Source: Paramacrobiotus metropolitanus
Taxonomy: Eukaryota > Tardigrada > Eutardigrada > Parachela > Macrobiotidae
Length of the DNA stretch: 64,000 bases
Direction: 5' to 3'
NCBI RefSeq assembly: GCF_019649055.1
Contig: NW_026570276.1
Location: 310,001-374,000 of the forward strand
Shown here piece after piece: positions 4,639-31,852 of the stretch. Both the position numbers and the translations under genes were made by a program. The notes under the pieces are model-generated. The model saw only the letters and a list, made by a program, of their open reading frames with translations. It made no database searches and had not been told where the DNA came from. Position 1 is the first letter of the stretch, and every line of letters starts with the position of its first letter.

Positions 4639-4684
4639 TTTTTCAGCCGTTTCTCGGTTTCCCTCGGATTGCGCCCTGCTTAGA

Positions 4685-9290: not shown

Positions 9291-9672
9291 TGACCTTTAC
9301 CAAATTTTGACAAGAATGATGACCTTTAACGAAGATGGAAAGTTGATGATTTGACGCAAGTTTTAAGTTGAGTTCTGTTAATTCCTAAATAAAATCCAAA
9401 AATATCTCGAAGTTCGCAGTTTTGACAAAAAGTTTTGGTGACCTTTACCAGAAAAAGATCCTAAAATCAAAAAGTGACCTTTACTTATTCGGAGTAAGCG
9501 TTAAGCTGAAACAGCTGATGACCTTTACGAGTTAAGTTTTGCTGAAGGAAGTGACCTTTACGAGAACTCAGTCAAATTTCTGAAGTAAAAAGTGACCTTT
9601 AGAAAGGACTTAGAACTTTTAAAGGCAGAGTGACCTTTAGCAACTGAGCTCGTATAAAACGAAGTGACCTTT
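9291..9672 (+). repeat. Leader array of nine TGACCTT motifs
   Basis: TGACCTT(T) starts at 9291, 9320, 9439, 9475, 9519, 9552, 9593, 9631 and 9665, mostly 29-44 bases apart and all in the same orientation. It is the non-coding counterpart of the AAGGTCA motifs that fill the coding region. Confidence 0.9.
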
Positions 9673-9789
9673 TGGACAGCGCTAGTTTCTGTTCACGTGT
9701 AAAAAGTCACATAAACATAATCTAACACACGTGTGAGAAACCTTGACAGCATCGTCCAAGTTATCCGATCACCCAAATTAAGTAAAGAC

Positions 9790-12700
9790 ATGGACCAAGA
9801 TAGAGACGGTAATGAACCGATCTCCTCCGGTAGTTCCCAAGGAAAACGGTCCAGGGACACTGATAATCCTTATAAAGTGAAATTGAAGCCGTTCACACGG
9901 CCAGTGGAACACGATCGATCGACTCGAGCTCCGAAGGCCTTTGAGAGGAAGGACTCTAAAGGTTCAGAAGCCACCTATCAAAAGGCTCTGAAAGAAACGC
10001 AGAATATGGAGAGCTCGAGCGATGAGAATGGACACTCCGGACGTCAAGGCGGAGATAACACGGTAGACCAGTCAAAGGTTACCGACGGGAGAACGGCACC
10101 TGATGGACAGATTCAAGCAGACCTGATGGTCGAGACCGGAGGAATGTCACGGTCGGCCGAAAAGGTCAAGGAGGAAAACGCGGATCAGTTAAAGAAGGGC
10201 GAGAACGAAGTCAGTCAAAAGGTCACAGAAGGGGGCGACGAGGTCAACAGCAATCAGCTGTTAGACGCAGGAAAGGTCAAGCTGGATGACCTTTCGGATG
10301 AATTGATGACCTTTAAGGGGTTAGAAGAGAAGGGTACCAGCCCAGCATCAAGTGACGAAAGATACTTTACGGATGACGAAGACGAGACAATGCAGATGTC
10401 ATTTCACACCGCAATGAAAGAAGCTGACCTAACGGATGCAATTCTGCAGATGACCTTTAAGGAGAAATCGGAAGAAACCTTCGTGGGAAGGGCGTCAGGA
10501 AGGGCTGACAACGAAAGGTCATCGACTCCCAAACCTCCGGTATCGAGCGACTCAAAACGGAAGGTCAGAGAGCTGGAACAACAACTCGAGTCCAAGGGAG
10601 AGCAGGCATTTGCAGCATTACAAGAGCAACGAAATAGAACATTTGAGCTGGAAGCACGAGTATATGTGCTAGAGCAAGAAAGGTCAGCGCTCGAAGACGA
10701 ATCACAACAATGGAAGGTCAGATATGAAGTGCAGAAGCAAATGGCAGAAGAACAGAAGAAAATGGTTGACGATAAAGATTTGGAAGGCATACTCGCCGTG
10801 GAAGACCTCAACAACAGTCTCTCCGAAGAGTCAGCTGAAAGGTCACGGGAGATAGCGGAATTGAAGGAACAGTGTGACCTTTTGAAAGCAAAGGTCATGG
10901 AAGCTGAATTTCAGCGCGACGAATGTCTGTCGAATGCAACAAAGGTCACCGGAAAGGTTGCCAGCCTGACAGCAGACATCACGGAGCTAATGAAAGATCT
11001 CAAAACATATGAAGAAAATAACCAAAAGCTGCAGACGGAACTGTCAGAAAGGACGAAAAAACAGGGAGAGACAGAAAAACAGCGAGACCAAGCAGCTCAA
11101 AGGCTCCAGGAACTTACGGAAAAGACGAAAACCGAAGTGAAAAGATTGAGCGACGAAGTGGAAGGTCACAAGAAAGATGCTCATAAATGGCAGAAACAGG
11201 CACAATTGATTGACGAAAGAGTCACAGTGCTTGAAATCGAGAACAGAGAAGGGCAAGTTCTCAATAACAAGCAGAAGCAAGATATCGCCAAGCTTGGAAG
11301 TGACCTTTTGGGAATGACGACTTTAGTGATGGCGAGAGACGATGAATTGGCTACGGTGAAAGAGCAGCTAATCTCAGCTGGAAGGCAGTATGAGAAGCTT
11401 GAAAAAGCGATGCAGAAGTTGAAGGAAGATAAAGAAGCCTACGAGGAGGGCGAGAATGACCGAACCCTCTCAATCCATGGCGAGATGAAAAAGGTGGAGC
11501 ACATTAAGGCAGAGAATGTCAGCCTCAAGAAGGAAAGAGATGACCTTTCCGGAAAGGTCAAGAAGCTAGAAGATCAGAATAACGCTCTTCTAATATCATT
11601 GAAACATAAAGACGAGCAACTCAGCAAATACGAACCGCAAAAGCAGGGAAGGTCACCAACTCCTCCACCGAAGTACGGCGATGCAACCGAAATTCATACT
11701 CACGACTTCAGCGCAACCTTCCAGATGCCCGAAAAGACAGGAATGGGAAATGGAAGAGGCTCTGAACTTCCCAAAAAGGAATCTGAGAAAAGGTCAACCG
11801 AACGTACGAAGGGGTACTCGGGACCATTCTTTGGCGGATCATCACATCAGACAGGGCCAAGTTACAGCGATGATCCACGACAATTTGAAGAAACCACCGT
11901 CCACCGAGAACCGGAAAACACGGAAGGTCACCGTGATCAACAACCCGAGCAGGACGGTTTTGCACAACACGGAGAACGACGAGAAAGGGATGAACGTGCG
12001 CAACTCCGAGCCGAACAAGAACGTCTAAGACGAGAACAATATGAGTTCCGTGGAATAGTGAAGCAAATGGGTAGAAAGTCAAACCTGGTGGACTACAACG
12101 GCAACCGAGACAGTCTTCTCGGTTGGATCCGCCAAGTTAAGGAAACGAAAAGGGCATTCCGTATGAGTGACGAAGAGATCATACTCGAAGTCGCCAACGT
12201 GGTCAAGGGAGATGCAAAAGTTTGGTTCGACGGCGAACGAGAAATTCTCGGAGAAGAAAATGATGAGATGACGGTCGATGAATGGATGACCAAATTCAAG
12301 GAAGAGTTCGGCGATCGAGACGAAGGGGTCCTCGCCTTACGCGAAGCCATGGCTAGAAAGGTCAAAGTTGGTGAAGAGTCGCTGGATCAGTTCTATCAAG
12401 CGATGATGCGCTTCAAATCGAAGAAAACTATTACGGAAAAGCAGGCGATCGCTTTCTTGATCGACGGATGCAAGAGCGATAGTGACCTTTACAAAGCAAT
12501 GAGAGCTCGAACATTCGAGACTCCAGCAGACATCAAAGAATTCTTCCACACATGGTCGGCGGGAGAGGACAAATATAAGGTGACGAGAGGGAATCGGAAC
12601 CGAGACGACTACGTCGTTATTCGGTCAGGTCATGTGGCAGAAGTCGCGAATGGACGACAAAACCAACCTCCGCCGCCACAAGCACCGAGATATGATGTCG

Positions 12701-13632
12701 AATTCCCGGCAATGAACAACCAAGAGGTGACCTTTAGTAATGAACGGAACGAACGGAATGAAGGTCAGATATCGTACGCGACGATCGCGGCGATACAGAC
12801 AGCAGTACAAGAGGTCACTCGACCAACAATCGCAGCAGCGGTTCAAGCGGTCCAAGAAGTGACCAGGCCAACTATCGCGGCCATCCAAGCGGCAGCCCAG
12901 CAAGCGGCTAGACCAGCACAGAATGTGCAAGGAAATGCGCAAGGAAATGCCCTGAATGGAGGGTTCGGAGGTCAAGGAATGGCACAAGCGAATCCTGGCT
13001 TCGCCGGCCAAGGATTCAATGGTGGCGGCAGAGGTCAAGGAAATCGCGGACAACAAGGGAACCAAGTCACCCGATACGCGTCGCGAACGGAAAGACTCTT
13101 CACGATGATTGACGGATGGGTGGCAAACAACGCGCTGACATGCCAAAACTGCATGTACGGCAATCACCACACGCAAGGGTGCTCGTTCGCGGGACCACCG
13201 TGGAATCAGAATCCGAACAGGATCGTTTATGAAGAGTGGCTGCAGCTGCGCAACCAAGGCGGTTGGCGACAAGCTATGGCGAATGGTTACGTCCCTCAAG
13301 CACGGCAAGGCGGACGGTACGCTGGTCAAGGTGGCCAAGGAAATTTCGGAGGTCAAGGTGGCCAATGGAATAACGGAGGTCAAGGTGGCCAAGGGAACTT
13401 TGCCGGTCAAGGTGGCCAGGGCAATTATGGAAATCAAGGCGGTGGCCAAGGTAACTTCGCCGGTCAAGGTGGCCAGGGCAATTATAAAAATCAAGGCGGT
13501 GGCCAAGGTAATTTCGCCGGTCAAGGTGGCCAGGGCGGAGGATACGGCCCGGCTCGCGGAGGCTTCAGAGGAAGGGGCAGAGGCTTCGGCCGCGGAGGCA
13601 ACCGGGGTTACGGCTATGCCGGCCCGGGCTAA
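9790..13632 (+). CDS. Gag-like polyprotein (coiled coil, capsid-like, CCHC, GQGGQ repeats)
   Basis: The first ATG in the open frame is at 9790 (the frame itself is open from 9733), giving 1280 residues. Regions in order: an acidic, Lys/Glu-rich N-terminal part; a long coiled coil (about residues 255-630); an Arg/Glu-rich segment (about 740-770); a retrotransposon Gag capsid-like domain of about 200 residues (about 760-950: Y-N-G-N-R-D, K-V-W-F-D-G, W-M-T-K-F-K-E-E-F, E-S-L-D-Q-F-Y); a CCHC zinc knuckle of exact form C-x2-C-x4-H-x4-C at 13141-13182; then Gly-Gln-rich repeats (G-Q-G-G-Q-G-N) and an RGG-like tail. Coding starts after a leader of about 1.2 kb. The gene carries about 20 AAGGTCA and 9 TGACCTT motifs. 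The frame stops at TAA 13630-13632, but the repeat pattern continues in frame beyond it. Confidence 0.88.
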   Translation: MDQDRDGNEPISSGSSQGKRSRDTDNPYKVKLKPFTRPVEHDRSTRAPKAFERKDSKGSEATYQKALKETQNMESSSDENGHSGRQGGDNTVDQSKVTDGRTAPDGQIQADLMVETGGMSRSAEKVKEENADQLKKGENEVSQKVTEGGDEVNSNQLLDAGKVKLDDLSDELMTFKGLEEKGTSPASSDERYFTDDEDETMQMSFHTAMKEADLTDAILQMTFKEKSEETFVGRASGRADNERSSTPKPPVSSDSKRKVRELEQQLESKGEQAFAALQEQRNRTFELEARVYVLEQERSALEDESQQWKVRYEVQKQMAEEQKKMVDDKDLEGILAVEDLNNSLSEESAERSREIAELKEQCDLLKAKVMEAEFQRDECLSNATKVTGKVASLTADITELMKDLKTYEENNQKLQTELSERTKKQGETEKQRDQAAQRLQELTEKTKTEVKRLSDEVEGHKKDAHKWQKQAQLIDERVTVLEIENREGQVLNNKQKQDIAKLGSDLLGMTTLVMARDDELATVKEQLISAGRQYEKLEKAMQKLKEDKEAYEEGENDRTLSIHGEMKKVEHIKAENVSLKKERDDLSGKVKKLEDQNNALLISLKHKDEQLSKYEPQKQGRSPTPPPKYGDATEIHTHDFSATFQMPEKTGMGNGRGSELPKKESEKRSTERTKGYSGPFFGGSSHQTGPSYSDDPRQFEETTVHREPENTEGHRDQQPEQDGFAQHGERRERDERAQLRAEQERLRREQYEFRGIVKQMGRKSNLVDYNGNRDSLLGWIRQVKETKRAFRMSDEEIILEVANVVKGDAKVWFDGEREILGEENDEMTVDEWMTKFKEEFGDRDEGVLALREAMARKVKVGEESLDQFYQAMMRFKSKKTITEKQAIAFLIDGCKSDSDLYKAMRARTFETPADIKEFFHTWSAGEDKYKVTRGNRNRDDYVVIRSGHVAEVANGRQNQPPPPQAPRYDVEFPAMNNQEVTFSNERNERNEGQISYATIAAIQTAVQEVTRPTIAAAVQAVQEVTRPTIAAIQAAAQQAARPAQNVQGNAQGNALNGGFGGQGMAQANPGFAGQGFNGGGRGQGNRGQQGNQVTRYASRTERLFTMIDGWVANNALTCQNCMYGNHHTQGCSFAGPPWNQNPNRIVYEEWLQLRNQGGWRQAMANGYVPQARQGGRYAGQGGQGNFGGQGGQWNNGGQGGQGNFAGQGGQGNYGNQGGGQGNFAGQGGQGNYKNQGGGQGNFAGQGGQGGGYGPARGGFRGRGRGFGRGGNRGYGYAGPG

Positions 13633-13917: not shown

Positions 13918-15527
13918 GCGCCGGTGAGCCTACTGATCGCCCGGAACCGAAACCACCGGACATAGGAGAGCAAGGTGCTCCGCCGCAGGGAAGAACCGCG
14001 GCGCAGAAAGAGAATGGTGAAAGGTCACCCAAGATACGGAAAAGAAATCCGAAGCTTCGAGAAAGTAACTCGAAAGCGAGCGAAGGGGCTCAGAAAGGTG
14101 ATGGCAAGGCTATCAAAAGATTACCGCAAGGACGGAAGAATTTGACCGAAAGGTCACCGCAGAAAGTAAATGCGGAACGTCAAGAAAGTAACTTGGCGCA
14201 GCCGGGGCTGACTCAAAGGTCACCGCAGAAAGTAACTGCGGGCAACAGGGTTGATGAAAGGGCATCAACTCTGCATCCGGATCAGCAGAAAGAAACTGCA
14301 AGGAGAGGTCACGAAAGTAACGTGACGCTGCAACAAGCGCAGCCGGGGCTGACCCAAAGGTCACCGCAGCAAGTAACTGCGGGCAACAGGGTTAATGAAA
14401 GGGCATCAACTCTGCATCCGGATCAGCAGAAAGAAACTGCAACGATAGGTCACGGAAGTAACTTGACGCTGCAACAAGTGCAGCCAGGGCTGACCCAAAG
14501 GTCACCGCAGAAAGTAACTGCGGGTAACAGGGTTGATGAAAGGGCATCAACTCTGCATCCGGATCAGCAGAAAAAAGCTGCAACGAAAGGTCACGGAAGT
14601 AACGTGACGCTGCAACAAGTGCAGCCGGGGCTGACCCAAAGGTCACCGCAGAAAGTAACTGCGGGTAACAGGGTTGATGAAAGGGCATCAACTCTGCATC
14701 CGGGACAGCAGAAAGTAACTGCAAATAAAGGTCACGAAAGTAACGTGGCGCCGTTGCAAATCCAGCAGACCCAAAGGTCACAGCAGAAAGTAACTGCGAC
14801 GAAAGGTCACGAAAGTAACGTGACGCTGCATGGACAGCAGACCGAAAGGTCACCGCCTCAAACTGAGGGCGAGACGACGAGGAAGTTCGTCGAAAAGAAG
14901 TTTGAAGAAGACGGAATAACCGTGATAGTGCGACGCACGCACGAAGACGGCCCAGATAGACCGAAATTCTTCGACCATATGAAAGAAACACTCCAGAAGA
15001 GAAAAGCTGCTGAGAAAGGTCACGAAAAGGTTGTGACAGCGCAAGGAGCGCAAAAGACCGAAAAGTCACTTCATGAAAGAGTTGAAGAAGTGAAAGGTCA
15101 CGAGAGACAGCCAGTGCAAGAGACGCAACAGTCACTGAAAGAGAAAGGTCACGGTGAAGTCGCCGTAGGACCGAAAGGTCAAGAAAGTAACTTGACTCTG
15201 CGAATGGCGCAGCAAACAGTGAAAGTTGGCGAAGGGGCACAGCAAGTTTCAGACGACTCTCTTGAATCAGCAAATAAGTTGCAGCAAAAGATGGAGTGGC
15301 AAAAGGTCACATATAGACGGCACGGTATGTGGAAACAAGTTTCTATACCGCAAAGGTCACCGCAAGATGCGAGAATTTCCAGAGAAGCTTACTGGGAAGA
15401 AAGAGAAAAACAAGATTGCCGAGCGAGAAAACATCTCGAGGAACTCGGTGAAAGCTTCCCAACCAAAGGTCAAGGAATACCGAGAAGCGAAAGAGAAAAT
15501 GGACGAAGAAAACCGTCAGTTTTATGA
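13836..15527 (+). CDS. -1 frame ORF with tandem repeats (entered by frameshift)
   Basis: Open in the -1 frame relative to Gag, overlapping the Gag tail by about 80 bases. It carries roughly five imperfect repeats of about 60 residues (14200-14760) built from Q-R-S-P-Q-K-V-T-A, R-A-S-T-L-H-P and K-G-H-x-S-N-V-T-L-Q, then a charged region with K-G-H and E-R-S at each motif copy. AAAGGTCAC encodes K-G-H or E-R-S depending on frame. No enzyme domain is seen; it may be a linker between Gag and protease. Near 15455-15470 the plausible frame passes to the +1 frame, which carries the protease further on, so an indel probably lies there. Confidence 0.6.
   Translation, partial: LRPGEWCRPGARCAAARDEPGKRSRSVGAGEPTDRPEPKPPDIGEQGAPPQGRTAAQKENGERSPKIRKRNPKLRESNSKASEGAQKGDGKAIKRLPQGRKNLTERSPQKVNAERQESNLAQPGLTQRSPQKVTAGNRVDERASTLHPDQQKETARRGHESNVTLQQAQPGLTQRSPQQVTAGNRVNERASTLHPDQQKETATIGHGSNLTLQQVQPGLTQRSPQKVTAGNRVDERASTLHPDQQKKAATKGHGSNVTLQQVQPGLTQRSPQKVTAGNRVDERASTLHPGQQKVTANKGHESNVAPLQIQQTQRSQQKVTATKGHESNVTLHGQQTERSPPQTEGETTRKFVEKKFEEDGITVIVRRTHEDGPDRPKFFDHMKETLQKRKAAEKGHEKVVTAQGAQKTEKSLHERVEEVKGHERQPVQETQQSLKEKGHGEVAVGPKGQESNLTLRMAQQTVKVGEGAQQVSDDSLESANKLQQKMEWQKVTYRRHGMWKQVSIPQRSPQDARISREAYWEEREKQDCRARKHLEELGESFPTKGQGIPRSERENGRRKPSVL
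13896..13936 (+). promoter_or_regulatory. Canonical -1 ribosomal frameshift signal
   Basis: The heptamer G-GGA-AAC at 13896-13902 is in the correct phase relative to the Gag frame. An 8-nt spacer is followed by a perfect 9-bp stem (TCAGTAGGC at 13911-13919 with GCCTACTGA at 13928-13936, 8-nt loop GCCGGTGA). CCGG in the loop can pair with CCGG at about 13941-13944, which would make an H-type pseudoknot. The 0-frame stop TAG is inside the stem (13915-13917). The -1 frame is open from 13836 to 15527. Confidence 0.82.
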
Positions 15528-15636
15528 GAGGACAGAGAAGGGAGAATTACAGCCGCAATACGGCGAGAAAGTGCCTTTACAAAGGTCACCAAATGGCGGA
15601 TTTTTCATGTCACGACCAGAAAGGTCACCGGACTGA

Positions 15637-17523
15637 GCGAAAACTACACAAAAGGAAAGGTCATACGACTTTGCGGAAGCACTCCGGAATGACAAAGAAA
15701 GGTCACCGCCCAAAACTGACGGATTGTCATCACAAGTTGATCCTACAGGGACAAATGAAGAAATTAATAAGAAATTCAGAGAGTGGATGAAAGAAAACGA
15801 TCACAAGATGATCGTCTACGAAAGGTCACCAGAGGAACTGGAAGACAAAGACGATGAGATGACCCTCGCGGATCGCATTACGCAAGAGATAATCGAGAAG
15901 TTGCGAGAAAAACCGTCCAAAGACGAAAGGTCACGATACGAAGTCATAAAAGAAGTGACGAAAGGTCACGAAAACGCACAAGCGAAGGAGAAAATGTGCG
16001 AAGCATCAAAGGTCACAAATAACGCTGCGAAGGGGCAGGCGTGTGACTGGCAACCTGAAAGACAAATTCGGGAATTTTATGATGCTAGGACTAACGTTCC
16101 GAAGAGGTTTGATCGGTTGAGTTCAAGAGACATCAACCAAAACGTGCAGGTGAAGGGGCAAACGCGCGAAGTTCCAAAGGTCACGGAAGATAATAACGCT
16201 GCGAAGGGGCAAGCGCGTGACGTTCCATCCGGAAAGAGAATCCGAGAATTTTACGACGTAAGACCGGATGTCCCAAAGAGGATTGACAAGTTGTCTCCGA
16301 TAAAGAATATGAACCCCCGATCAAATGATCCGATTCAAGTCCATTGCAGAATTAGAGTGTTGAAACTTCAAGATGGAAACACGCCCAAGCGAATCGAAGC
16401 GCTGACTCATAAAGTTAAAGCCGGAAATGTAAAGGTCATGGCAATGCTTGATACAGGCGCAGAGACGTCTCTGATCTGTCAACAGTTCTGCGAGAGGAAC
16501 GGCCTCCAGACTGTACCGCTACCGCCAAAGAGGACGGTGATGATCAAAGGAATCAGCGGAACTTCAGGTTTTCAAGTGACACACTATTGCGTAGCGCCAG
16601 TGACCTTACGAAAGAAAACAACTCAACACTCCTTCTACGTCAGACCAGCATCAGACGATGTTCAGGTTCTGCTTGGATTTGATTTCCTTGCAAAGAAGTT
16701 CGTCTTAATAGACGGAGATGAAACGGATGACGAAGACGCCGACGAAGATGAAGATAAGGAAAAAGATGATGAGCCGAAATCTACTGCGAAACTTAACGCG
16801 GGAAAGGTCACCGAACTTCAGCCAAGAAATGAAGCGGGGCAAACGGCTATCCCAGTACCAGAGGCACAGGGCAAAGAAAAGTTCAAAAAGGCTGAAAGGT
16901 CACCAAAGTTGAAAGGCAATAAAAGGTCACCAACCATGGAACAGATCAAGATTATGCAAGCTGAAGCACTGATTGCGAAGAGAGACGCATTAGTCCCTGG
17001 ACTGGAGTGGTCGAAGCTAATCTCAGTACCAGATGCACCGGGCACGGAAAAGGTTGAGCCCAGAAAAGAAACGGGACTGATGAACAGTGATGAAAGAGCG
17101 TTATTCAACGAATTACGGGAGAAAGCTATAGAGCAGTTGCAAAATACACGCTCCCGAAAAGATAAACCAGAGCGTAGTTCACAAGCTACTTTCGAACCAC
17201 GCTCTGCGGATAAAGAAATAGAAGTCAACGAATTGTCTTCAGACCACAGCGTGATTCCAATGGAATGTGATCGCGACTGGACGGATACAGAAGATGAAGA
17301 TGACCTTTGCGTCAACCGAAACCAATCGAATGGACAGCTGAACAAAGAGCAACAGCATGCAACCACGATTGGCACGATGACCTTTCGAAAGTACAGCCGC
17401 AGGAGAAGTGCATCCGGTGCTTACAAGAAGCAAGGCCAGATGACCTTTCGGAATGGCCGAAATGCAACGCCGCAATTGCAAGTCTCAAGAAAGGCGACTG
17501 GATCGAAACAAAATCAATCATGA
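15637..17523 (+). CDS. Aspartic protease ORF of the pol region
   Basis: Open frame after an in-frame TGA at 15634-15636; the same frame is open upstream of that TGA from about 15226 and reads similarly, so the TGA may be a CGA to TGA change. The retroviral-type protease is at about 16430-16720: M-L-D-T-G-A-E-T-S-L-I (catalytic Asp), G-I-S-G-T in the flap region, and L-L-G-F-D-F-L, matching the I/L-L-G-x-D/N-F-L motif. An acidic D/E stretch and repeated K-V, E-R-S and A-T-F-E-P-R-S-A segments follow. The frame ends at 17523 but a related open frame (-1) takes over at about 17310. Confidence 0.75.
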   Translation, partial: AKTTQKERSYDFAEALRNDKERSPPKTDGLSSQVDPTGTNEEINKKFREWMKENDHKMIVYERSPEELEDKDDEMTLADRITQEIIEKLREKPSKDERSRYEVIKEVTKGHENAQAKEKMCEASKVTNNAAKGQACDWQPERQIREFYDARTNVPKRFDRLSSRDINQNVQVKGQTREVPKVTEDNNAAKGQARDVPSGKRIREFYDVRPDVPKRIDKLSPIKNMNPRSNDPIQVHCRIRVLKLQDGNTPKRIEALTHKVKAGNVKVMAMLDTGAETSLICQQFCERNGLQTVPLPPKRTVMIKGISGTSGFQVTHYCVAPVTLRKKTTQHSFYVRPASDDVQVLLGFDFLAKKFVLIDGDETDDEDADEDEDKEKDDEPKSTAKLNAGKVTELQPRNEAGQTAIPVPEAQGKEKFKKAERSPKLKGNKRSPTMEQIKIMQAEALIAKRDALVPGLEWSKLISVPDAPGTEKVEPRKETGLMNSDERALFNELREKAIEQLQNTRSRKDKPERSSQATFEPRSADKEIEVNELSSDHSVIPMECDRDWTDTEDEDDLCVNRNQSNGQLNKEQQHATTIGTMTFRKYSRRRSASGAYKKQGQMTFRNGRNATPQLQVSRKATGSKQNQS

Positions 17524-18370: not shown

Positions 18371-18432
18371 ACGCCGTTCAAGAAGACGCCCAAGAAGATG
18401 ACGACGGAGAAGGGTCACCGTCGGCATACAAA

Positions 18433-18792: not shown

Positions 18793-18817
18793 AAGCGATG
18801 ACCTTTCAACGTCAGTG

Positions 18818-21894: not shown

Positions 21895-23755
21895 AGGGCA
21901 ATCATCCATGCACTGCATGATGAAAAGTGCAGCAGGTCATCTCGGCTTTGAAAAAACGTTGGCCGCAATCAGGCTCAGATACTACTGGGACCGAATGAGC
22001 ACGGATGTAAAGAACTACATTCTGGCCTGCCAAGGATGTCAATTCCGAAAGACGCCGAGAAAATGTCCGCCTGGAAAGCTCCAAGAAATCAAAGTCGGAC
22101 ATCCGTTCTTCAGAGTTTATGCGGATCTGAAAGGACCTTTACTTCCAACGAAGAAGAAGGGGTACAAGTATATCGCGGTCTTCATTGACCAGCTGACGAA
22201 GTACGTGATAGCGGAGCCAATGAAAACGGCTACGGCAAAAGAATTCGCAAAGGTCTTCGTGAAGAACGTGATTCTGGTGCACGGAGCGCCGCATATCCTC
22301 CATACCGATGGTGGAAGACACTTCACAGCTGAAGTCTTGAAAAAGGTCACCAACGTGTTCAAAATCAAACACACGTTTGGAACGGCGTATCATCCCGAAG
22401 GTCAAGGACAAGTCGAAAGACAGATGCAGACGATCAGCGATGGACTGTCTCAATACATGAAAGCCGGGAATGAAAGGAAGTTCAACAAATATCTTCCATA
22501 CGTCGTATCGGGAATGAACCGCGTTGTACATGCGACGACGGGATATTCAGCATATTTCATGCTGCACGGCAGAGAAATGACCATGCCGGAAGACGTCGTT
22601 ACAAAGACGAACGTTCCCGACGATTACGGTACTCCAGACGAATGGGTGGAGACCATGAAGAAGAACTTGACCTTTTCAGAGGAAGTTGCGAAGTGCAATA
22701 TCAAAGACGCCTATGAAAGGCATGCTGAAATTTACAATAAAAAGAAGTCGGAACCGGAATTCAAAGTCGGCGACCGCGTCTTGATCAGACTTCCAAAAGA
22801 TACGAAGCAAGGGAAGAAAGAGAATCAAGCGGACTTTAAGAATAAATACGATAAAGTCTGGAAAATCCTCAGCTTCCCGAGACCAAACGAAGTCGAAGTT
22901 ATCGAGATGGACGCAAAGAAAGAACCAGACGTGAGAGTTGTCTCAGTCGATCGACTGAAGCATTGGCATCCTCCATTGCCCGATCAAGAACATGAGAAAG
23001 GTCACGCTGAAAGGGCAGCGATCGAGAATGAAAGGTCAGCAAAGCACGACTCTCAAGCTACTTTCGAACCACGCTCAGCACCAGAGAACGAGAAAGGTCA
23101 CGAGGCAGAAGTGCCGAAAGAGGCAGAAGAGCCGAAAAAGAAGAAGAGAGGACGACCGAAGAAAGAAATCAAAGATTTTGAAACGCCGGTCACAATAAAA
23201 CTGAATCAAGAAGCAGGAAATCTTGCTACCGCAGATGAAAATGAAAGATCACAATCTGCCAAAGAAGTAGCAGAACGCAATTCGCAAGATACTGCTACCC
23301 AGGCAGCAGAGCATGGCTCTTCAGTTACTTTCGAACCACGCCCTGCTACTAAGGCTTTACTTCACGCAGACCGTGGATCTCAAAATACTTCCGAACCACG
23401 ATCAGCTACTGAAAAATATGACCTTTCAAAAACGGAGCAAATTAAAGCGGTCAAGGAAAGGGCAGACCGACTTGGCCAAGATATCGCCAAAGCGATCGAA
23501 GAACGAAAGGTCAAGAAACCTAAAAAGAATCCGAAGCCCACTCCGGAACAAATTCTGAGGGGTGAAGTCGATACAGAAGAGGAACCTGACAAAGAATTAC
23601 TTGATCGGATAACGAAAGGACGGAAAAACATAAATCCAAAAATCAGATTAATAGGAGTTTATGATATTATGACGGGAGATTGGGATGGCATAAAGGTCAT
23701 CAGGAATAAACCTGCTAATCGGAGTTATTTTCGTTCTCGTAGTAGGTTTCAGTAA
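21860..23755 (+). CDS. Integrase
   Basis: HHCC zinc region (first His pair in the previous frame, G-H-L-G-F-E, then C-Q-G-C at about 22030), a frame change near 21930, then the catalytic core with D in Y-A-D-L-K-G-P, D in H-T-D-G-G-R-H-F and E in G-Q-V-E-R-Q (D-D-35-E spacing). A C-terminal V-G-D-R-V-L-I-R segment and V-D-R-L-K-H-W-H follow, typical of Gypsy integrases. The last 250 codons are low-complexity with K-K-K-R-G-R-P-K-K (AT-hook-like and possibly nuclear-localising) and repeated A-T-F-E-P-R segments. Frame ends 15 bases before the next ORF. Confidence 0.85.
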   Translation: MNGRMSYRCQCEGQSSMHCMMKSAAGHLGFEKTLAAIRLRYYWDRMSTDVKNYILACQGCQFRKTPRKCPPGKLQEIKVGHPFFRVYADLKGPLLPTKKKGYKYIAVFIDQLTKYVIAEPMKTATAKEFAKVFVKNVILVHGAPHILHTDGGRHFTAEVLKKVTNVFKIKHTFGTAYHPEGQGQVERQMQTISDGLSQYMKAGNERKFNKYLPYVVSGMNRVVHATTGYSAYFMLHGREMTMPEDVVTKTNVPDDYGTPDEWVETMKKNLTFSEEVAKCNIKDAYERHAEIYNKKKSEPEFKVGDRVLIRLPKDTKQGKKENQADFKNKYDKVWKILSFPRPNEVEVIEMDAKKEPDVRVVSVDRLKHWHPPLPDQEHEKGHAERAAIENERSAKHDSQATFEPRSAPENEKGHEAEVPKEAEEPKKKKRGRPKKEIKDFETPVTIKLNQEAGNLATADENERSQSAKEVAERNSQDTATQAAEHGSSVTFEPRPATKALLHADRGSQNTSEPRSATEKYDLSKTEQIKAVKERADRLGQDIAKAIEERKVKKPKKNPKPTPEQILRGEVDTEEEPDKELLDRITKGRKNINPKIRLIGVYDIMTGDWDGIKVIRNKPANRSYFRSRSRFQ

Positions 23756-23769
23756 CGATAGATCGGAAG

Positions 23770-26700
23770 ATGGAAGGACAGGATCCCAACGCGTCATATT
23801 GGAATCCGGGCACGCCGTCATCGACGAGCGGAACGATACAAGACCCGGAAATGTACGATGACTCCATGAACACTGAAGGCGGATATGGCTACGACGGGGG
23901 ATACGACCCGAATTACGCGTATCAACAATCAGATACCGGATTGGGATCGAATAAATGGGGGACTTACGGCTCACAAGTCGGGCCCCAAGGACAAATGATG
24001 CCGAACCAGATGATGCCGAACCAAGGGATGATGGGTCAAAACTTCTCGTTTCAACAATTTCCCCAGAATATGTACGGTCAAAATATGCCGATGATGAACC
24101 AAGGCCAACCGATGCAAGGTCAGTTCGGTTATGGAGGAATGGCCCCATTTCCGAACCAGATGCAAGGTCAAGGGCAGTTTAGGACGCCAAATGCGGGGGG
24201 AATGACACCGCAGGCTCCGAGAAGGGGACGAGGAAATTCAGTGGAAGTTTTTACATCTCGAGGCCAAAGAAACCCGTGGAACAGGCAAAACACACCGCGA
24301 ATGGGCGGTCCGCCGTCCATCCCTCAGGCATCGACAAGTGGTCACAGACCAAGAATGGAAATTCCGTCATTAACGCCGGTTAGAATCCAATCGCCACATT
24401 CTACTGGAAGTATCCCATGGGCAGTAATCAATGCGCCGAGGTTTCAAGATCCAGTGACGGAAACGGCCCCGCAATACAACATTATCGTTGACCCAAAGGT
24501 CACTCTGACGGAAGAAGAAAAAAGGTCCATCGCGGAATTCAACGCGAAATGCCGCGAATTCGTTGAGACCCATAATGAAATCAACGAAAACCAGTTCCAG
24601 TACAGGACCGCAAGAAAGAGTCACAAGCTTGACAGAGGAGTGCACCTGGAACGGAAGCTCACTAAACATAAAGCAGAAGAACTAAGGAAAGAGTTGGGCG
24701 TGGAAATCAGAACACTTAAGTCTGTCACGCCAATATTGAAAGACAAAGAGTGGCCAAGCGCGGTCGAAACGATACTGGTTTTCCTAAATCTAATTCAAGG
24801 AAAACAGGAAGAAGAAGAAGAAAGAGGAGTTAAGACTCCGGCAGAGGAAAGTCCCACCGGTGAAGAGCGAAAGGTCAAGAAAACGAAGAACGAGCCTTTC
24901 GAACCTCCTAGTGACCCATTGACAGCAAGAGAAAGGGAGCTGTTGAGAGAACGAGCTAAACTCGACAGAGAGCTAATGAATATAAGGTCACGAGCGACGT
25001 CGGCGGTTCAATCTGGATCGTCTCGCGCAAGCCCGGCGAGAGAAAGTCAGCCAAAGCAGAAAGGTCATGCGACGGTGGGGGAAGGTCACACCGGTCAGCA
25101 AGTTCAGACGAAAGGTCATCCTGGTGGAAGCACGCGAAGGGGCGTAGCTCGGGTCGCAAAATGCCGATCGTACACCAGAGTCTTCCGCGTAAAGAACAAA
25201 TTCGAAGGAGTGGTCAGCGCCTTTTTGGTCCAAATGGACACGAATGAACCGATTCCATCGTCGGCAGAAGGAACTCAGCAAAAAGGATTCGTCGAGATGT
25301 GCATGATGGCGAATGAACAAGTCGAAGAGAAAATTGCGGAGATATTTCCTTCAGAACGAAACAACCCACATACGATCGGACGAATCCTCATGGAATTATT
25401 GATGGACACCGCATTCCACGAAAGGGCATACATTATGGTGACGATCGACTTCGACGGAAAAGTTGAGAAGAAACTTTATGACCCTCACGGAACAAAGATT
25501 GATATGCGATCACATAGCGCATATCCTGCATCAGGTGCGAAGGGGCACGAAGCAGGCGAAGAAGAAAACGCTTCAGAAGATAAAGGTCAAGAAGAGAGCC
25601 AAGCCCAACCTTTCAGAGAAACAATCTGCAGGACTTTGAAAGTGAGGTATTACTTGGCAAATGGGGACGAAGGATACGTCTATGGATATATTGTCGATTC
25701 AGTCACGATGATGCCGATTCCGACGGCAGGGACGAATGCTTCGCCTGAAGAAATCGAATGGCAGACGCAGAAAGCGTACACGGATCTGCAAAAGATGCTC
25801 AGTCTCATACCAGAAGAACAAAGGAACGATGTGGCTGAGAACGTCAGATGCGTATTAAGCATCCTGCAACAAAGAGCTGAGGAAGACAAGGCCAATATTC
25901 TGGTATTGATGAAAGATAATCAAGGGAAGTTCAAATCGTTGTTCAACTCGAAAGGTCAAGGACTTAACTTCCGGCCGCAGTATCAAGTTCATCCGGCGGA
26001 GGAAGGTCACGCCGAGCGGTATAATCAGCCCCCAGCAGAGGCTAGGAAAGAAGAAGAAGCACAAGAGCGAGAATCGCCTTGTAGAAGGCTGGATTACAAA
26101 TTCCTAACAGAAGATGGAAGAGAAGGGATACTTAAGATCGAAGTGGTAGATCCGGCCACTGGAAAGACGATGCCGAATGAAGATCTGACGCAAGAACAGG
26201 AGGATCATGAAACGGTATTACTTCTTCAGGAAATCGAGGAGGTATTACAAACTTTCCCGGACGAAGAAGAAAGAGATGAATTTGAAACATTGACGGAAAT
26301 CTTGGTCAACGTAATGATGCCCAGAGCAAGGCGGGATCAAGCATATATGCGCTTAACTCATGTTGATCCAATTCACGGAGAGGTGTATAAACAGCTTTAC
26401 ACCGCGAATGGCGAAGCGCTCAGTAACCTGGCGTCGGCGAAAAAGAATAAGAAAACCGCAGAGAAGGGTGAGCGGGAAACGGCAAAAGTAGAACCGAAAG
26501 GCCATGCCATCAAGAAACAGGTGACAGAAGAAGTCAAAGGTCACCAGGTGAAAACCGAAGAAGTACCGAAAGGTCATCAAGTCAAAACTGAAACGCAGGA
26601 CGACGTGAAAGGTCACGAATCGAAAGAGTTGACCCCGAGACGTAGCGCTGAAAGAGTGAGGCAGATCCTTGAAGGTGAAGTGACACCGCAATCATGTAAC

Positions 26701-28980
26701 GAACCGGGATGCGAACTTGAAGTCTTTGAAAAAGAAGAAGAAGAATCAGAGAAGAAAAAGAAACCAGTGAAAACTCCTAAGACTCCGGCACGAAAAGGTG
26801 GAGCCGTTGGTAAACAATCGAAGCTTTCGGGAGTTATGGCATCGAAAAGGCCAAAACCTGATTCGGACTCAGAATCTGAGAAGATGGTCATTGACGCACA
26901 GCCGGGTTCATCACAGCAAGATAGCGGCGACGAAAAAGATAAAGGTCAATCGCGTAACGTGATGGAAGAAGCGATGAGGATGCAGCCGATTTATGCATCA
27001 ACGATGAAAGAACGAAAAGAAAAGAGCGAGAAAGAGAAGAAGAAAAGGGATACTTCCGTCGAGTCAGCCAAATCCGAGGCAAGTGCAGTGTCAGCACCAT
27101 CCCCGAAGCCGAAGAAAGAAACGCTAAAGAAAGGTCAACAGAAGGTCATGCCAAAAGCAGATCCCAGCTTGGCCGAGTATATGGATGCACAAAAGAAACC
27201 AAAGGTCACGAAGAGGAACAGTCTAATCGGAAGAGTCGATCCGGCTGACATTGTCGATTGGCAACCGCCGGGAGGAGAAAGCGATCTGGATTACTCAGAC
27301 GACGAAAGCTTCTTCCTCGAGGACGACCACGAGAAATTGACGATCGAAGAAGTTGACGAGATAGTGCTGGGCGCTACTGCCGAATGGGGCAAAACGAAAC
27401 AATCCGTCACGTCAATGTTCAGGAGTGACCTCAGATCATATTGCAATGAGAATGAGATACGACTCACAAGGGAGAAGTATGACGTCCTACTGGAATACGC
27501 CAGAAGCACGGGGAAGATCCTGCAAAAATATCCAGGATATGGAGTTAAAGCGAAGTTGTTCGTCATGGGTAACAACAACGAACGAAAGCTGGCCACTGCA
27601 AACGCAGACGTAAGAGAACGGATTGATCGTGCCATTACCGGAATGTGCAGCCCAACTGGCACTACAAAGCACAGAATGGCTCAGTTCATCAACAGCGTCT
27701 GGAGCAAAGAGAAGGGAAATGCTTCAGAAATTGAAAGGTCACTTGAAGCGCCACTAACGCAGATGGTCAAAGAAGGGATACTCCACACTACGAATCCCCA
27801 CAAAGGAGTGCCCATCAGATACAGCTCAGTAAACGCTGTCATGGAAGAATTACGAAAGTACTCGAAAGAAGAGACCAGCGAAGACACGACCGTCATCGTG
27901 GATCCAAGGATCGATGCGGCAAGCCCCATCTTAAGTCAAATTCAGCTCATGAGCGGGCAAAAGCCAACCTCGTCGAAGAAAGAGGAAGTGGCGATTGAAG
28001 AGGCTGTGGTGGAGGTAGTTGACGAAGATGATTCGAAGTCAAATGCCCCGAAGTCAGCAGCAGAAGCCATTGCAATGGTGGGACCGAAAACGTCTTCAGT
28101 CCAAGAGGCTCTGGCGCTGGTGCGAAGCAAAAAGGTCACGGAGGCAGGTAGCGCCGAAAAGATGTTGCCAACAGCAAAGGATGTCCAGATTATCCATAAG
28201 ACGACATCAGCGTTGGTGCCGCTCAAAACTGCACACGAAAGATTAGTGCAAAGCCTGAAAGATCAACGTACGGCAGAAGCGACTAAAGGTCATCCGACTG
28301 TAGAAAGTCCAGCCGGGGCGGAAGGTCACCCGAGCTTGAGCCTAGAAAAGGCGCCAGCTGATTCAAGTTCAAGCGCAGCGGACCCGGCAAAGTTAATGCC
28401 ACCCCCTCAGAAGGAAGAAAAAGAGCCACCTTTTGAACTCTTAGAGGAAGAGATGGTTGAAGGCAAGCCGGCGTATATGACAATTGATGAACTGAACGAA
28501 AGCAATGAGGCATGGATGACAATCTACGCCGCAATCGGTGCTGCTCCGTCAAGGGAAATGAATAAAGCTGAGATCACGAAGGCCGTCAGCGATGCTGGGA
28601 TCAGCAGAGGCCAGGTCAACAAAATTTTGAAAAGGGCGTACAAAGAAGGACGAATTGGAGTACGTTACACCAATATGAACGTACCAGTTCATTACATCCC
28701 TCTTGCGGAGGAACAGCGGAAGCAAAGAGCGAAGCCGAATGGCCAGGCATGGAAAGACGTCCTAGTTAACGACGCTTTACAGAATATCGGAGGAACGAAT
28801 GGTGTGACAATTGAAGATATCGCAAACTACATGGCTGTCCAATATGATTCGGGCCTGGAAAATATGAGAGGCGACCGGATAAGGATCCAGAATGCACTGG
28901 ATAGCCTGGTCAAAGAAAAGACGATCAGAATCGAAAAGAGAAACGGAGTTGATCGTTATGACTGGATCGCAAAAGCTTAA
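23770..28980 (+). CDS. ORF3, 1736 codons, novel triple-repeat protein in the env position
   Basis: Intact, ATG at 23770. It has no signal peptide or membrane helix, so it is not an obvious envelope protein. N-terminal about 170 residues are Met/Gln/Asn/Gly-rich and prion-like. A Lys/Glu-rich region follows. Three tandem copies of an unrecognised domain of about 110 residues start near residues 465, 619 and 770; each opens with C-R, has a middle M-P or I-P turn, an I-F-P / L-I-P-E-E / F-P-D-E-E helix and ends with a D-G/N-Q-G/I-H-G strand pair. A basic/acidic linker with K-K-K-R and K-G-H repeats follows. The last 160 residues look like two winged-helix units (E-I-T-K-A-V-S-D-A-G-I-S-R-G-Q-V-N-K-I-L; V-T-I-E-D-I-A-N-Y-M-A). 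Function unknown; nucleic-acid binding is inferred. Confidence 0.85.
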   Translation: MEGQDPNASYWNPGTPSSTSGTIQDPEMYDDSMNTEGGYGYDGGYDPNYAYQQSDTGLGSNKWGTYGSQVGPQGQMMPNQMMPNQGMMGQNFSFQQFPQNMYGQNMPMMNQGQPMQGQFGYGGMAPFPNQMQGQGQFRTPNAGGMTPQAPRRGRGNSVEVFTSRGQRNPWNRQNTPRMGGPPSIPQASTSGHRPRMEIPSLTPVRIQSPHSTGSIPWAVINAPRFQDPVTETAPQYNIIVDPKVTLTEEEKRSIAEFNAKCREFVETHNEINENQFQYRTARKSHKLDRGVHLERKLTKHKAEELRKELGVEIRTLKSVTPILKDKEWPSAVETILVFLNLIQGKQEEEEERGVKTPAEESPTGEERKVKKTKNEPFEPPSDPLTARERELLRERAKLDRELMNIRSRATSAVQSGSSRASPARESQPKQKGHATVGEGHTGQQVQTKGHPGGSTRRGVARVAKCRSYTRVFRVKNKFEGVVSAFLVQMDTNEPIPSSAEGTQQKGFVEMCMMANEQVEEKIAEIFPSERNNPHTIGRILMELLMDTAFHERAYIMVTIDFDGKVEKKLYDPHGTKIDMRSHSAYPASGAKGHEAGEEENASEDKGQEESQAQPFRETICRTLKVRYYLANGDEGYVYGYIVDSVTMMPIPTAGTNASPEEIEWQTQKAYTDLQKMLSLIPEEQRNDVAENVRCVLSILQQRAEEDKANILVLMKDNQGKFKSLFNSKGQGLNFRPQYQVHPAEEGHAERYNQPPAEARKEEEAQERESPCRRLDYKFLTEDGREGILKIEVVDPATGKTMPNEDLTQEQEDHETVLLLQEIEEVLQTFPDEEERDEFETLTEILVNVMMPRARRDQAYMRLTHVDPIHGEVYKQLYTANGEALSNLASAKKNKKTAEKGERETAKVEPKGHAIKKQVTEEVKGHQVKTEEVPKGHQVKTETQDDVKGHESKELTPRRSAERVRQILEGEVTPQSCNEPGCELEVFEKEEEESEKKKKPVKTPKTPARKGGAVGKQSKLSGVMASKRPKPDSDSESEKMVIDAQPGSSQQDSGDEKDKGQSRNVMEEAMRMQPIYASTMKERKEKSEKEKKKRDTSVESAKSEASAVSAPSPKPKKETLKKGQQKVMPKADPSLAEYMDAQKKPKVTKRNSLIGRVDPADIVDWQPPGGESDLDYSDDESFFLEDDHEKLTIEEVDEIVLGATAEWGKTKQSVTSMFRSDLRSYCNENEIRLTREKYDVLLEYARSTGKILQKYPGYGVKAKLFVMGNNNERKLATANADVRERIDRAITGMCSPTGTTKHRMAQFINSVWSKEKGNASEIERSLEAPLTQMVKEGILHTTNPHKGVPIRYSSVNAVMEELRKYSKEETSEDTTVIVDPRIDAASPILSQIQLMSGQKPTSSKKEEVAIEEAVVEVVDEDDSKSNAPKSAAEAIAMVGPKTSSVQEALALVRSKKVTEAGSAEKMLPTAKDVQIIHKTTSALVPLKTAHERLVQSLKDQRTAEATKGHPTVESPAGAEGHPSLSLEKAPADSSSSAADPAKLMPPPQKEEKEPPFELLEEEMVEGKPAYMTIDELNESNEAWMTIYAAIGAAPSREMNKAEITKAVSDAGISRGQVNKILKRAYKEGRIGVRYTNMNVPVHYIPLAEEQRKQRAKPNGQAWKDVLVNDALQNIGGTNGVTIEDIANYMAVQYDSGLENMRGDRIRIQNALDSLVKEKTIRIEKRNGVDRYDWIAKA

Positions 28981-29293: not shown

Positions 29294-29626
29294 ATGGCTG
29301 AACGGAGTCAACCCAGCCAAACGGCAAAGAAAGGTCAAAGACCACCGTTGAAAAAGGTGACGGGGGATCCGGCCACGAATTTCAATGAAACCTGCCCAGA
29401 TTGCAAACGCAATAACATCCTGGCTAATGAACGATATCCTTGCTGGGAATGTGTGTGCGCCGTGCCGAACCAGGCATTTGTCGTACCCGAGGAAGCAAAG
29501 CGGGGGAATATCGATGTGTTTCGACATTTGGTCACGGGACATACTTGGAAGAAACTTTCACCGGAAGATCGAATGATTCTTGAAGACAAATACCGCATGT
29601 GGGTAGGACGCAGAAACGGCGAGTAA
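29294..29626 (+). CDS. Small zinc-ribbon-like ORF of the giant element
   Basis: ATG at 29294, 110 residues. The centre has C-P-D-C and C-W-E-C separated by 12 residues between inner cysteines, a zinc-ribbon-like C-x2-C-x12-C-x2-C arrangement. A second half with H-L-V-T-G-H and K-L-S-P-E-D-R follows. It lies between ORF3 and the basic ORF with AAAGGTCA motifs on both sides. Family not recognised; an accessory nucleic-acid-binding protein is possible. Confidence 0.65.
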   Translation: MAERSQPSQTAKKGQRPPLKKVTGDPATNFNETCPDCKRNNILANERYPCWECVCAVPNQAFVVPEEAKRGNIDVFRHLVTGHTWKKLSPEDRMILEDKYRMWVGRRNGE

Positions 29627-29729
29627 CGCACCGCCGGAGTCAGAAGCAGAGAAAGGTCATTTGAAAGGTCAAGTCCAGACTCGGATCTCGCAGAGACAGC
29701 CTCTTCGTACAATTGAGCTGGTGTTTGAA

Positions 29730-30842
29730 ATGAACGACATTGCGGAACAGACCAGAGAGATCTGTCGTTCAGTGGGCATCGAGCCGGAAGATAAAGAAGA
29801 GACCGATAAAGTCTATTGGCTCCTTATGAATTTACGCCAAGTCATGGTGGATTGCGAATACGCGAAGGAGTACGAATACGGTCAATGGGAAGACCTCATC
29901 ATCACACAGGAGTCAGCAAGCCTGAACTACTTCCCAACGAGAGAAAGCGGACTTGTCAGTCTGATTGACCTTAGTCTCTTGGAAACTGCACTGGACACGC
30001 CAGACCCGACAGGCATGACGCAGTTCAATTATAGAGACATCAAAGAAAGAAGACTCCACGTAGCGCAGTTCGGGTTACGCCATGTGAATCCGGCATTGCG
30101 ACTCCTCGCAGGAAGGGCTGCGTTAGGATTGTCAGTTCAACCGGATTCCCCGCCGGACTATAAGGTCACGATCCAAAAGATCTTCGCAACAAGGTTGTGC
30201 CATTACGAGACGCATCACCAATTGAGAAAGAGCGCTCAGAGAGGAAATGAGATTCCGCCGGCATTAACCGCGCAGGTCATCAAGTTGGGGATGCCCATCG
30301 CAAACTTCAACTCCTCTGAGACGGTGAAAAGGCAGCTTAAGGACTACCAAAAAGCGATGGCTAATGACGAACAGCTGAAACGTCAGGCACAGCTTCATGC
30401 TCATCGGTGCGCAGAACGGATAAGACGCACAATGGGGACAAAGTTCATCCAGCCATCTGACTTCGTCTATGAGTTCATTCAAGAGATTAGCGTCAACAAG
30501 AGTAGTCACCGTCCAGAACTTGGAAAGCGACCCCAGAACAACGATATGGGAAAACGCGGACGGCGAAACCAACAGCTGCATATGGATTATGTTGACCTTT
30601 GTCAAAGGTTGGCAAACAATTCACATGATGAGAGATTGAAAGCGCAAACGATTGACGCCCGGGAACATTTGATACGCATTCAGCGTCGGCGCAATCGAAA
30701 CAGAAACAGTAGCGCTAGCAGCCGGAGCGAAGGAGACCAGCTGCAGGAGAGGCAAAGGGAACCTCGAGATCGGACGTCGGATCAGAACGAAAAACAACGA
30801 CGTTTCGATCGGAACCGCGATAATGGTTCAAGTGATCAGTGA
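29730..30842 (+). CDS. Basic C-terminal ORF of the giant element
   Basis: The first ATG in the frame is at 29730 (370 residues); the frame is open from 29661 with a TTG. The N-terminal half is mixed alpha-helical-looking without a known motif; the C-terminal 60 residues are Arg/Ser/Gln-rich (R-R-R-N-R-N-R-N-S-S-A-S-S-R-S), likely RNA-binding. The frame is intact although the nearby pol is broken. It is the last ORF before the 3' non-coding part. Unknown family. Confidence 0.7.
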   Translation: MNDIAEQTREICRSVGIEPEDKEETDKVYWLLMNLRQVMVDCEYAKEYEYGQWEDLIITQESASLNYFPTRESGLVSLIDLSLLETALDTPDPTGMTQFNYRDIKERRLHVAQFGLRHVNPALRLLAGRAALGLSVQPDSPPDYKVTIQKIFATRLCHYETHHQLRKSAQRGNEIPPALTAQVIKLGMPIANFNSSETVKRQLKDYQKAMANDEQLKRQAQLHAHRCAERIRRTMGTKFIQPSDFVYEFIQEISVNKSSHRPELGKRPQNNDMGKRGRRNQQLHMDYVDLCQRLANNSHDERLKAQTIDAREHLIRIQRRRNRNRNSSASSRSEGDQLQERQREPRDRTSDQNEKQRRFDRNRDNGSSDQ

Positions 30843-30864
30843 TGACTTTTAGGGCATCATTGAT

Positions 30865-31345
30865 GTGCTAGTTACGGCCATCAGTCGGCAGCACAGAGAA
30901 TGGTACTTAAGGTAACGTATCAGGGCGGAAGGAAGTAACTTATTAAACTGTCATATCGTTCGTGTCTTGTTGTTTGCAGAGTTTTGTTTCAGAGGATCAA
31001 TGAGATCTTACACTTGGGGAGTCACGGTGGTCAACCGGCCCTCAAAAGAGGAAGAGTAACGGCGATAACCGGCCTTTCTCATTTCAACTTAACGTCACTT
31101 AAGAGTGTAGTTGCGGCCAGCTGAGTCGGCACACTCTGGCGGAATGACAGAAGCCACAAGGGTGAAAAAGAGAAAGAGTTCAAGAAAAAGTGAAGAAATT
31201 GTCAGATAACGAGGTTACGGCGACAAAATATGTCTGCCTCAAGAGAGGAGTTACGGCAATCAACCGGCCTTCTAACCTGGTAAGGAAAGAAGAAGAAAAA
31301 GTGCGCGTCATTGGAAGGAGGTTACGGCGTCACACCGGCCATCTT
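30865..31345 (+). repeat. 3' non-coding repeats of TTACGGC...CCGGCC type
   Basis: Phrases of the form (G)TTACGGC-N3-7-CAACCGGCC or close variants recur near 30872, 31021, 31056, 31108, 31213, 31252 and 31320. Spacing is irregular (35-140 bases). Not coding; possibly structured RNA. Confidence 0.55.
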
Positions 31346-31399
31346 CTGCACTTATAAAAAGAATGGATGTGCGACCGAGATATAAAGAAAAGAAAATGA

Positions 31400-31852
31400 T
31401 GACCTTTACAAGGGAGGCAAGCAGAACTGCTTGAAAGCCAGAAACATCGGCTAAGTCCCTCCATGACCTTTAACGCTGATTTCATAATGGAAAAGGGATG
31501 ACCTTTTGGGATCGTCACTGCCCAAATGAGTCGCACATCGGAAACGAAATTGATGACCTTTGAGAATTTCACTGCTCAAAGAGTCTTATGAAATAAGAGA
31601 ATGACCTTACCAGGGAGGAAGCAAACAAGCTTGTCTTCAAGACGTCCCTCCATGACCTTTGATGAATCTCAGTATTATGAAAGACGTACGTTTGATACGC
31701 ACTCAATCCAAAGATGAAGAAGCAGTATTCGAAAGTCGTACAGTGATACGCACCTAATTCCTTAAAGCGGATCTCATTTGTGATGAAAAGATTGCTCATA
31801 GAGCGGAATGGGCCAAAGCGGATTACGGTTGACAGGACCCAGTGACCTTTAC
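31400..31852 (+). repeat. 3' array of seven TGACCTT motifs
   Basis: TGACCTT occurs near 31400, 31462, 31499, 31554, 31602, 31654 and 31842, all in the orientation of the leader array. The region also repeats CAAGGGAGGCAAGCA / CCAGGGAGGAAGCAA, GTCCCTCCATGACCTTT and CGTACGTTTGATACGCAC / CGTACAGTGATACGCAC phrases. Confidence 0.85.

Follow-up and report, generated by a model that had tools for sequence, protein, structure and literature searches.

A Ty3-type retrotransposon of the tardigrade Paramacrobiotus metropolitanus saturated with one exact DNA word that matches a nuclear-receptor site

A 64,000-nucleotide stretch of the genome of the tardigrade Paramacrobiotus metropolitanus (assembly GCF_019649055.1, contig NW_026570276.1, positions 310,001 to 374,000; hereafter the window) contains a Ty3-type long terminal repeat (LTR) retrotransposon of about 24 kb, and throughout its interior this element repeats the heptamer AAGGTCA or its complement TGACCTT (hereafter the forward and the reverse word). 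An earlier note, made from the letters of the window, had given its extent as 9291-31852; the words do lie there, but the element itself is larger and runs, LTR to LTR, from 8258 to 32401. It is flanked on both sides by the 4-bp GGTT (8254-8257 and 32402-32405), a short target duplication. Pfam matches over cut-off follow the Ty3 order of protease, reverse transcriptase, RNase H and integrase, the reverse transcriptase match being divided across two frames in this copy (Table 1). The gag-like frame shows a coiled-coil-like stretch, Gly-rich repeats and, by eye, a zinc-knuckle-like CxxCx4Hx4C, and 141-bp tandem repeats at 14196-14751 include the word. The start of the putative primer binding site presumably resembles initiator-Met tRNA sites; TGGTAGCA lies directly 3' of the LTR in the window and in two further copies of the family (C160 and C36), and a third copy (C169) diverges after TGGT. 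The segment before the tail array (30843-31399) is without the word and contains, by eye, repeated TTACGG...CCGGCC-like pieces.

Table 1. Features of the retrotransposon, in window coordinates
Feature	Position	Strand	Content or basis
5' LTR	8258..8582	+	TGTGAG...TTATA ends; without AAGGTCA
Putative primer binding site	8583..8600	+	begins TGGTAGCAGACGACG
Proximal leader without the word	8583..9290	+	word count
Leader array	9291..9671	-	9 TGACCTT in 381 bp; start-to-start gaps 29-119; mostly then TA
Gag-like frame	9733..13632	+	1299 codons; 17 forward and 8 reverse words
Dense stretch	14142..15723	+	frame 14142-15527 (KGH/ERS/KVT-rich, 17 forward words) and 4 words in the gap after it
Frame with retroviral-type aspartyl protease	15724..17523	+	Pfam
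Reverse transcriptase and RNase H	19179..21894	+	two overlapping frames; Pfam
Integrase (H2C2 zinc binding and rve core)	21860..23755	+	Pfam
Third large frame	23770..28980	+	1736 aa; 22 forward words
110-aa frame	29294..29626	+	CxxC...CxxC zinc-ribbon-like motif (by eye); Pfam matches below cut-off
393-aa frame	29661..30842	+	without Pfam match
3' tail array	31400..31849	-	7 TGACCTT, single orientation
3' LTR	32077..32401	+	2 mismatches to the 5' LTR within these bounds

By exact count, 101 forward and 38 reverse words (139 together) lie in 9291-31852, in agreement with the approximately 100 and 37 of the earlier note, and the whole window holds 147, compared with 7.9 +/- 2.9 (largest 15) in 100 dinucleotide shuffles. 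The word is rare outside the element, as had been said, with slightly more copies than the five or so then claimed (6 AAGGTCA and 2 TGACCTT in about 41 kb). An A precedes 83 of the 101 forward and 34 of the 38 reverse words, so that 117/139 form the octamer AAAGGTCA, and G is rare directly after the word (7/101 forward, 0/38 reverse). The 21 one-base variants remain near background, with a mean of 4.8 and a largest count of 14 vs 139 for the word; the signal is thus a single exact word with a sharp edge. Outside the octamer and the bases next to it, the flanks of the window's words have no strong consensus in common. The word occurs in neither LTR, nor in the roughly 700 bp after the 5' LTR, nor in the last 230 bp or so before the 3' LTR.

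Within the ten coding frames, the forward word is read in all three codon phases (29, 36 and 21 copies, as KV-, -GH/GQ and -RS). For the reverse word just two phases are used (8 and 12 copies, as -TF/TL and -DL), since the third would read a TGA stop. When synonymous codons were shuffled within these frames with the proteins kept (2000 shuffles), forward words averaged 18.7 (maximum 32) and reverse words 2.1 (maximum 8), against 86 and 20 observed; in total, about 21 vs 106. Of the 140 forward and 37 reverse sites at which the peptide permits the word, 86 and 20 carry it, with 16.6 and 1.8 expected from codon usage. Codon shuffles, permitted-site use and the third-position conservation described below strongly support a constraint on nucleotides and not on protein, as had been proposed, and selection almost certainly acts at the nucleotide level. 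Over 22 kb of this LTR retrotransposon, then, selection for one DNA word would prevail over the choice of codons. Most coding copies are AAGGTCA, as previously noticed, largely because the proteins permit more forward than reverse sites; use of the permitted sites in the window is 61% forward and 54% reverse (Fisher p 0.45; here and for the Fisher value below, the loci are homologous copies, so that sites are not independent).

The excess of the word was also searched for in other copies of the element (family A), and it was present in all six further copies retrieved, one of them just ~77% identical. Neither of the two outcomes that the earlier note had named as refuting its claim, similar counts in shuffled-codon controls and lack of the excess in other copies, was obtained, and the excess is confirmed, more strongly than first described. 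In 16 of 18 copy stretches the word is the commonest 7-mer, is tied for that rank or falls at most 3 counts below its own overlap AAAGGTC; the two exceptions, L018 with 2 words and L023 with 7, consist largely of flanking sequence. The pooled family-A table comprises 17 of the 18 stretches, L017, where most words run the opposite way, having been left out because its words seem to belong to another element nearby. In the most diverged copy, C36 (74% and 79% identity over two long aligned stretches, 77.4% on average), 19 of the 27 words that align are conserved, vs 16.1% for any 7-mer and 25/155 for flanking 7-mers. Just 23% of the element aligns to C36, yet 112 words are found in the 27 kb retrieved, and, judging from these alignments, word number is maintained where sequence is not. 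Third codon positions are identical in C36 at 33/40 inside the word vs 719/1389 elsewhere, and in C160 at 234/245 vs 4521/5667 (codon positions were counted in four of the six copies); for noncoding positions of C36 the values are 74/76 and 825/1002. In a column profile over all six copies, the raised block comprises the eight columns -1 to +6.

The LTR pairs of three copies are 98.8% (C160), 99.7% (C169) and 100% (C36) identical over 325-354 columns, and no LTR pair was found in the retrieved stretches of C97, C56b and C29; such identity indicates recent activity, which agrees with the success of the element. The C36 LTRs (L024:1302-1655 and L026:5760-6113) are identical over 354 bp in a copy that is ~77% identical to the window's where aligned, which suggests that a deep branch was recently active. 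An insertion preference for the word was considered and rejected, since the flanking duplications, read by eye, are GGTT in the window, GCCG in C36 and GCAA in C169, none of them the word; in C160, the fourth copy read, no clear duplication was seen.

A related Ty3 family of the same genome, family B, is 39% identical in the integrase frame and has 0 or 1 words per locus (20 loci of 4.4-5.3 kb), compared with 8-22 at eight family-A loci of 4.5 kb, which include the window's own copy (L001). Family B has the word at 8/143 forward and 1/56 reverse permitted sites (counted at each locus in its longest frame, of 300 codons or more), and the family-A loci at 59/86 and 14/26. No comparable saturating word of its own was seen in the 20 family-B loci, and family B is a natural control without the word. 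Families B, C and D (including L027-L046) are further related Ty3 families with open frames of up to 2626 codons, whose checked copies are without the word or without its clusters. Copy numbers are lower bounds, based on the best 40 of 427 candidates for family A and the best 60 of 2279 for families B, C and D. Relatives of the integrase frame among annotated P. metropolitanus genes are P0001, P0002, P0004 and P0017 (short part), at least 61% identical, and P0003 (39%), which is encoded in the genome at 100% over 747 aa. The annotated genes P0062, P0001-P0004 and P0017, one of them named trichohyalin-like, are frames of this or related retroelement families.

At the scale of the genome, three successive TGACCTT with gaps of 3-33 occur 1124 times vs 21 for the reversed control. 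Among the places listed (C1 to part of C7), all six family-A copies known on those contigs overlap such clusters at the expected offsets, and none of nine copies of families B, C and D on C1, C3, C4, C5 and C6 has a cluster within 15 kb. Some clusters fall where no known copy is listed, and other carriers are therefore possible. The genome holds 42,562 AAAGGTCA vs 15,522 of the reversed word, an excess which, divided by 117, would correspond to ~230 element equivalents, as an estimate only.

Close spacing is scarce. In the window, gaps of at most 20 bp number 6 vs 16.0 expected and gaps of 21-66 bp 54 vs 30, and the smallest start-to-start distance is 11; in three C36 stretches the short gaps number 2, 0 and 0 vs 7.2, 3.0 and 1.4 expected, with gaps of 21-66 bp in excess. 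This scarcity fits separate proteins sitting on DNA at monomer sites. Moreover, the variants that G-U wobble would tolerate are without clear excess (GAGGTCA 9, AGGGTCA 1, AAGGTTA 1 and AAGGTCG 2 in forward form; TGATCTT 1 and TGACTTT 1 as reverse forms), and where the protein leaves room the word is used in either orientation. Both findings are better matched by recognition of double-stranded DNA than by pairing of RNA. The word is thus probably recognized as double-stranded DNA by a protein.

The octamer AAAGGTCA is the NBRE, which is bound by NR4A monomers or homodimers (PMC6912296). Counted exon by exon, the host genome gave 63 matches to the nuclear-receptor DNA-binding domain. Three neighbouring stretches on C45, placed in order on one strand, match an approximate HR38/NR4A-type (insect-type) query domain at 83, 76 and 67% over 30, 49 and 32 query residues; the other 36 matches are at most 66%. 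These matches support, without proving, an NR4A orthologue at the C45 locus. Our best reading, which we put at roughly 0.4, is that the words form an array of monomer sites to which a host receptor of NR4A type would bind, the receptor and its effect both being what we infer. That the reader is a nuclear receptor of some kind seems evenly balanced, and a licensing or insulating (anti-silencing) effect along the body slightly less credible than that. Of the two ideas in the earlier note, transcription-factor loading is the better one, as the conserved eight-column block equals the NR4A/NBRE word, with the identity of its reader kept conditional here.

A host protein of NR4A or similar type would occupy scattered monomer sites across the integrated element, and this occupancy might keep the long element open for transcription, or insulated. 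The distribution of the word, over 22 kb but not in the LTR promoter region, suggests a function that increases with length; such a function would call for sites from one end to the other and would benefit an element of 24 kb most. The word would then be kept by selection as separate double-stranded binding sites, genes included. Two other kinds of receptor site are disfavoured. The ERR/SF-1/FTZ-F1-type extension TCAAGGTCA would require a C at -1, found in 5/101 forward and 0/38 reverse words, and direct-repeat dimer sites do not suit the spacing, gaps of at most 20 bp being scarce.

Several observations weigh against an NR4A-type array. An ordinary activator would be expected to have its sites in the LTRs or in the next ~700 bp, and these are free of the word. 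The exactness, without tolerated variants, is sharper than is usual for receptor sites, and the related family B manages without the word. The column profile is noisy owing to small samples, with -8 also high in C36 (0.97) and +5 low in C29 (0.82). In C36 the permitted sites are used more in the forward (70/98, 71%) than in the reverse orientation (15/38, 39%; Fisher p 8e-4). Leader and tail are almost entirely TGACCTT (9/9 and 7/7 in the window, as the earlier note stated; 13/13 and, within 1 kb of the 3' LTR, 5/6 in C36), and such one-way orientation is not predicted by orientation-free binding. It recurs in the leader of C97 (8/8) and in the final 1 kb ahead of the 3' LTR in C160 (6/6) and C169 (7/7). 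Among the five leaders compared (window, C97, C36, C160 and C169), the first three have the one-way cluster. Finally, the leader array is absent from C160, which has no words between the 5' LTR and the first long frame, and from C169, which has lost the leader and gag region. Several near-identical 29-bp units make up part of the C36 leader, and local duplication accounts for part of the uniformity there, not for the tails.

A broader alternative, which we regard as rather doubtful, is a self-recognition word running through the whole element, genes included, as a eukaryotic counterpart of bacterial uptake sequences. Each added AAAGGTCA might raise the chance that element DNA is bound, shielded or carried forward, and the word might spread at the cost of codon choice and become common across the host genome. 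In another reading the word would be a self-tag for the element's own third-frame protein, which would coat or compact the 24-kb complementary DNA (cDNA) and aid its transport or a preference for its own kind. We consider such an element-encoded reader unlikely. Coating by an element protein would suit a whole-length array, and the C-terminal ~160 aa of the third frame are predicted, as we read the structural model, to form two tandem winged helices (block means of the model confidence score pLDDT mostly 72-90, one 59). With Foldseek, the model weakly matched TFIIIC TauB (probability 0.99, E 3.4e-3), RPC62 (0.77, E 0.038) and, at rank 30, the DNA-bound KAT6A winged helix (TMt 0.66, E 0.19), but nothing at E 0.001, and pLDDT is below 50 in 351/542 residues. 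A weak linker-histone Pfam match (E 5.8e-5, 23.7 bits, cut-off 22.4) and the finding of parts of the frame in C36 at 24-51% also favour it. A protein search with residues 500-1736 gave a single relative, from the same species (7974 candidates scored). However, the octamer equals a host receptor site, and a long frame follows the integrase in family B too (5 loci inspected), which does not have the word, so that an element-encoded reader is not specifically supported. By tblastn (E 1e-8) the third frame was found in 0/20 family-B loci, which extend just ~1.5 kb past the match.

It is also unlikely, to about the same degree, that another host DNA-binding protein of architectural or insulator type, unrelated to nuclear receptors, reads the word and that the NBRE match is coincidental. 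The clustered one-way leader array does resemble the gypsy insulator (PMC2374998), but the conserved columns are the full NBRE octamer, with its A at -1 in 117/139 words. Still less probable is the second idea of the earlier note, in which AAGGUCA and UGACCUU would pair inside one element RNA or between two, or be met by a small RNA, and serve packaging, circularisation or condensation. It would accommodate the leader and tail, where all words of the window are complementary to the form that prevails in the body (nearly so in C36); however, besides the lack of a clear excess of G-U variants, pairing would permit many different word pairs and not one exact word, and both forms occur in the coding parts of one transcript. 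That tandem duplication, codon bias or peptide repeats made the count, with no nucleotide function, can be dismissed for most copies: the word-bearing repeat at 14196-14751 and the C36 leader units are partly of this origin, but duplication is rejected as the general source in the body, where flanks share no consensus past the octamer and the adjoining bases. Codon bias and peptide repeats are rejected by the codon shuffles and the family B permitted-site control, and third-position conservation opposes all three for the body as a whole.

Elsewhere in the window, a MULE-transposase-like fragment lies at 202-1062 (E 2.5e-4, below the Pfam cut-off), and a 364-bp tandem repeat of 2.5 copies at 4506-5411, with a unit that looks tRNA-derived by eye and in which ARAGORN called no tRNA. 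Just outside the 3' LTR there is a large inverted repeat (32858-33668), imperfect and with short TTAGG-rich repeats inside it, followed by an immunoglobulin-domain frame (34216-35010), two rhodopsin-type receptor-like frames on the minus strand (44413-48422; the scan covered 47415-48422) and a GC-rich tandem array of period 82/164 bp (56001-57177).

If a host receptor reads the word, a transposon family would have turned a hormone- or stress-type receptor into a licence for its whole body and loaded the host genome with thousands of the receptor's sites; if the element's own protein does, a mobile element of a eukaryote would bear a self-tag. In either case, how very long retroelements remain expressed or transportable can be put to a direct test, since the word is short, exact and easily counted and family B provides a natural control that does not have it. 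DNA uptake sequences stand in both orientations and within coding DNA, and in Alu-type repeats each element has inherited a single site or a few; to our knowledge, no uptake process exists for the tardigrade element and the NBRE has not been met in such number inside coding DNA. Among the titles and abstract openings listed in our literature searches, with subscription papers and bioRxiv preprints largely outside them, none describes an element saturated with one exact word, genes included.

Among known systems, the uptake sequences of Haemophilus and Neisseria are likewise a single short word present hundreds to thousands of times, with a reported orientation bias of the intragenic copies (PMC2346458), but they are whole-genome transformation tags of bacteria, whereas the tardigrade word belongs to one family of eukaryotic elements. 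Alu and other repeats are mobile elements that bear AGGTCA-type sites and have spread nuclear-receptor sites (PMC1785376, PMC3252374); here, in contrast, over a hundred sites, likely held by selection, are carried by a single element. The NBRE of NR4A receptors (Nur77/Nurr1/HR38) is the identical octamer, and close spacing of the word is scarce, but known sites lie in target-gene promoters (PMC6912296), whereas the sites predicted here are largely inside coding DNA. The Su(Hw) array of the Drosophila gypsy element also belongs to an LTR element of Ty3/gypsy kind and is a cluster of short sites in the transcribed 5' leader; it has 12 sites for a zinc-finger protein in 340 bp of 5' untranslated region (PMC2374998), and the tardigrade leader has 9 in 381 bp. 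The core is TGCATA in gypsy (PMC2374998), in contrast to AAAGGTCA, which continues through genes and tail over 22 kb. Insulation is a property of the gypsy array, and the tardigrade leader array resembles it in position and extent. On our best reading, the words of the element may be seen as akin in kind to the gypsy insulator, but over-extended.

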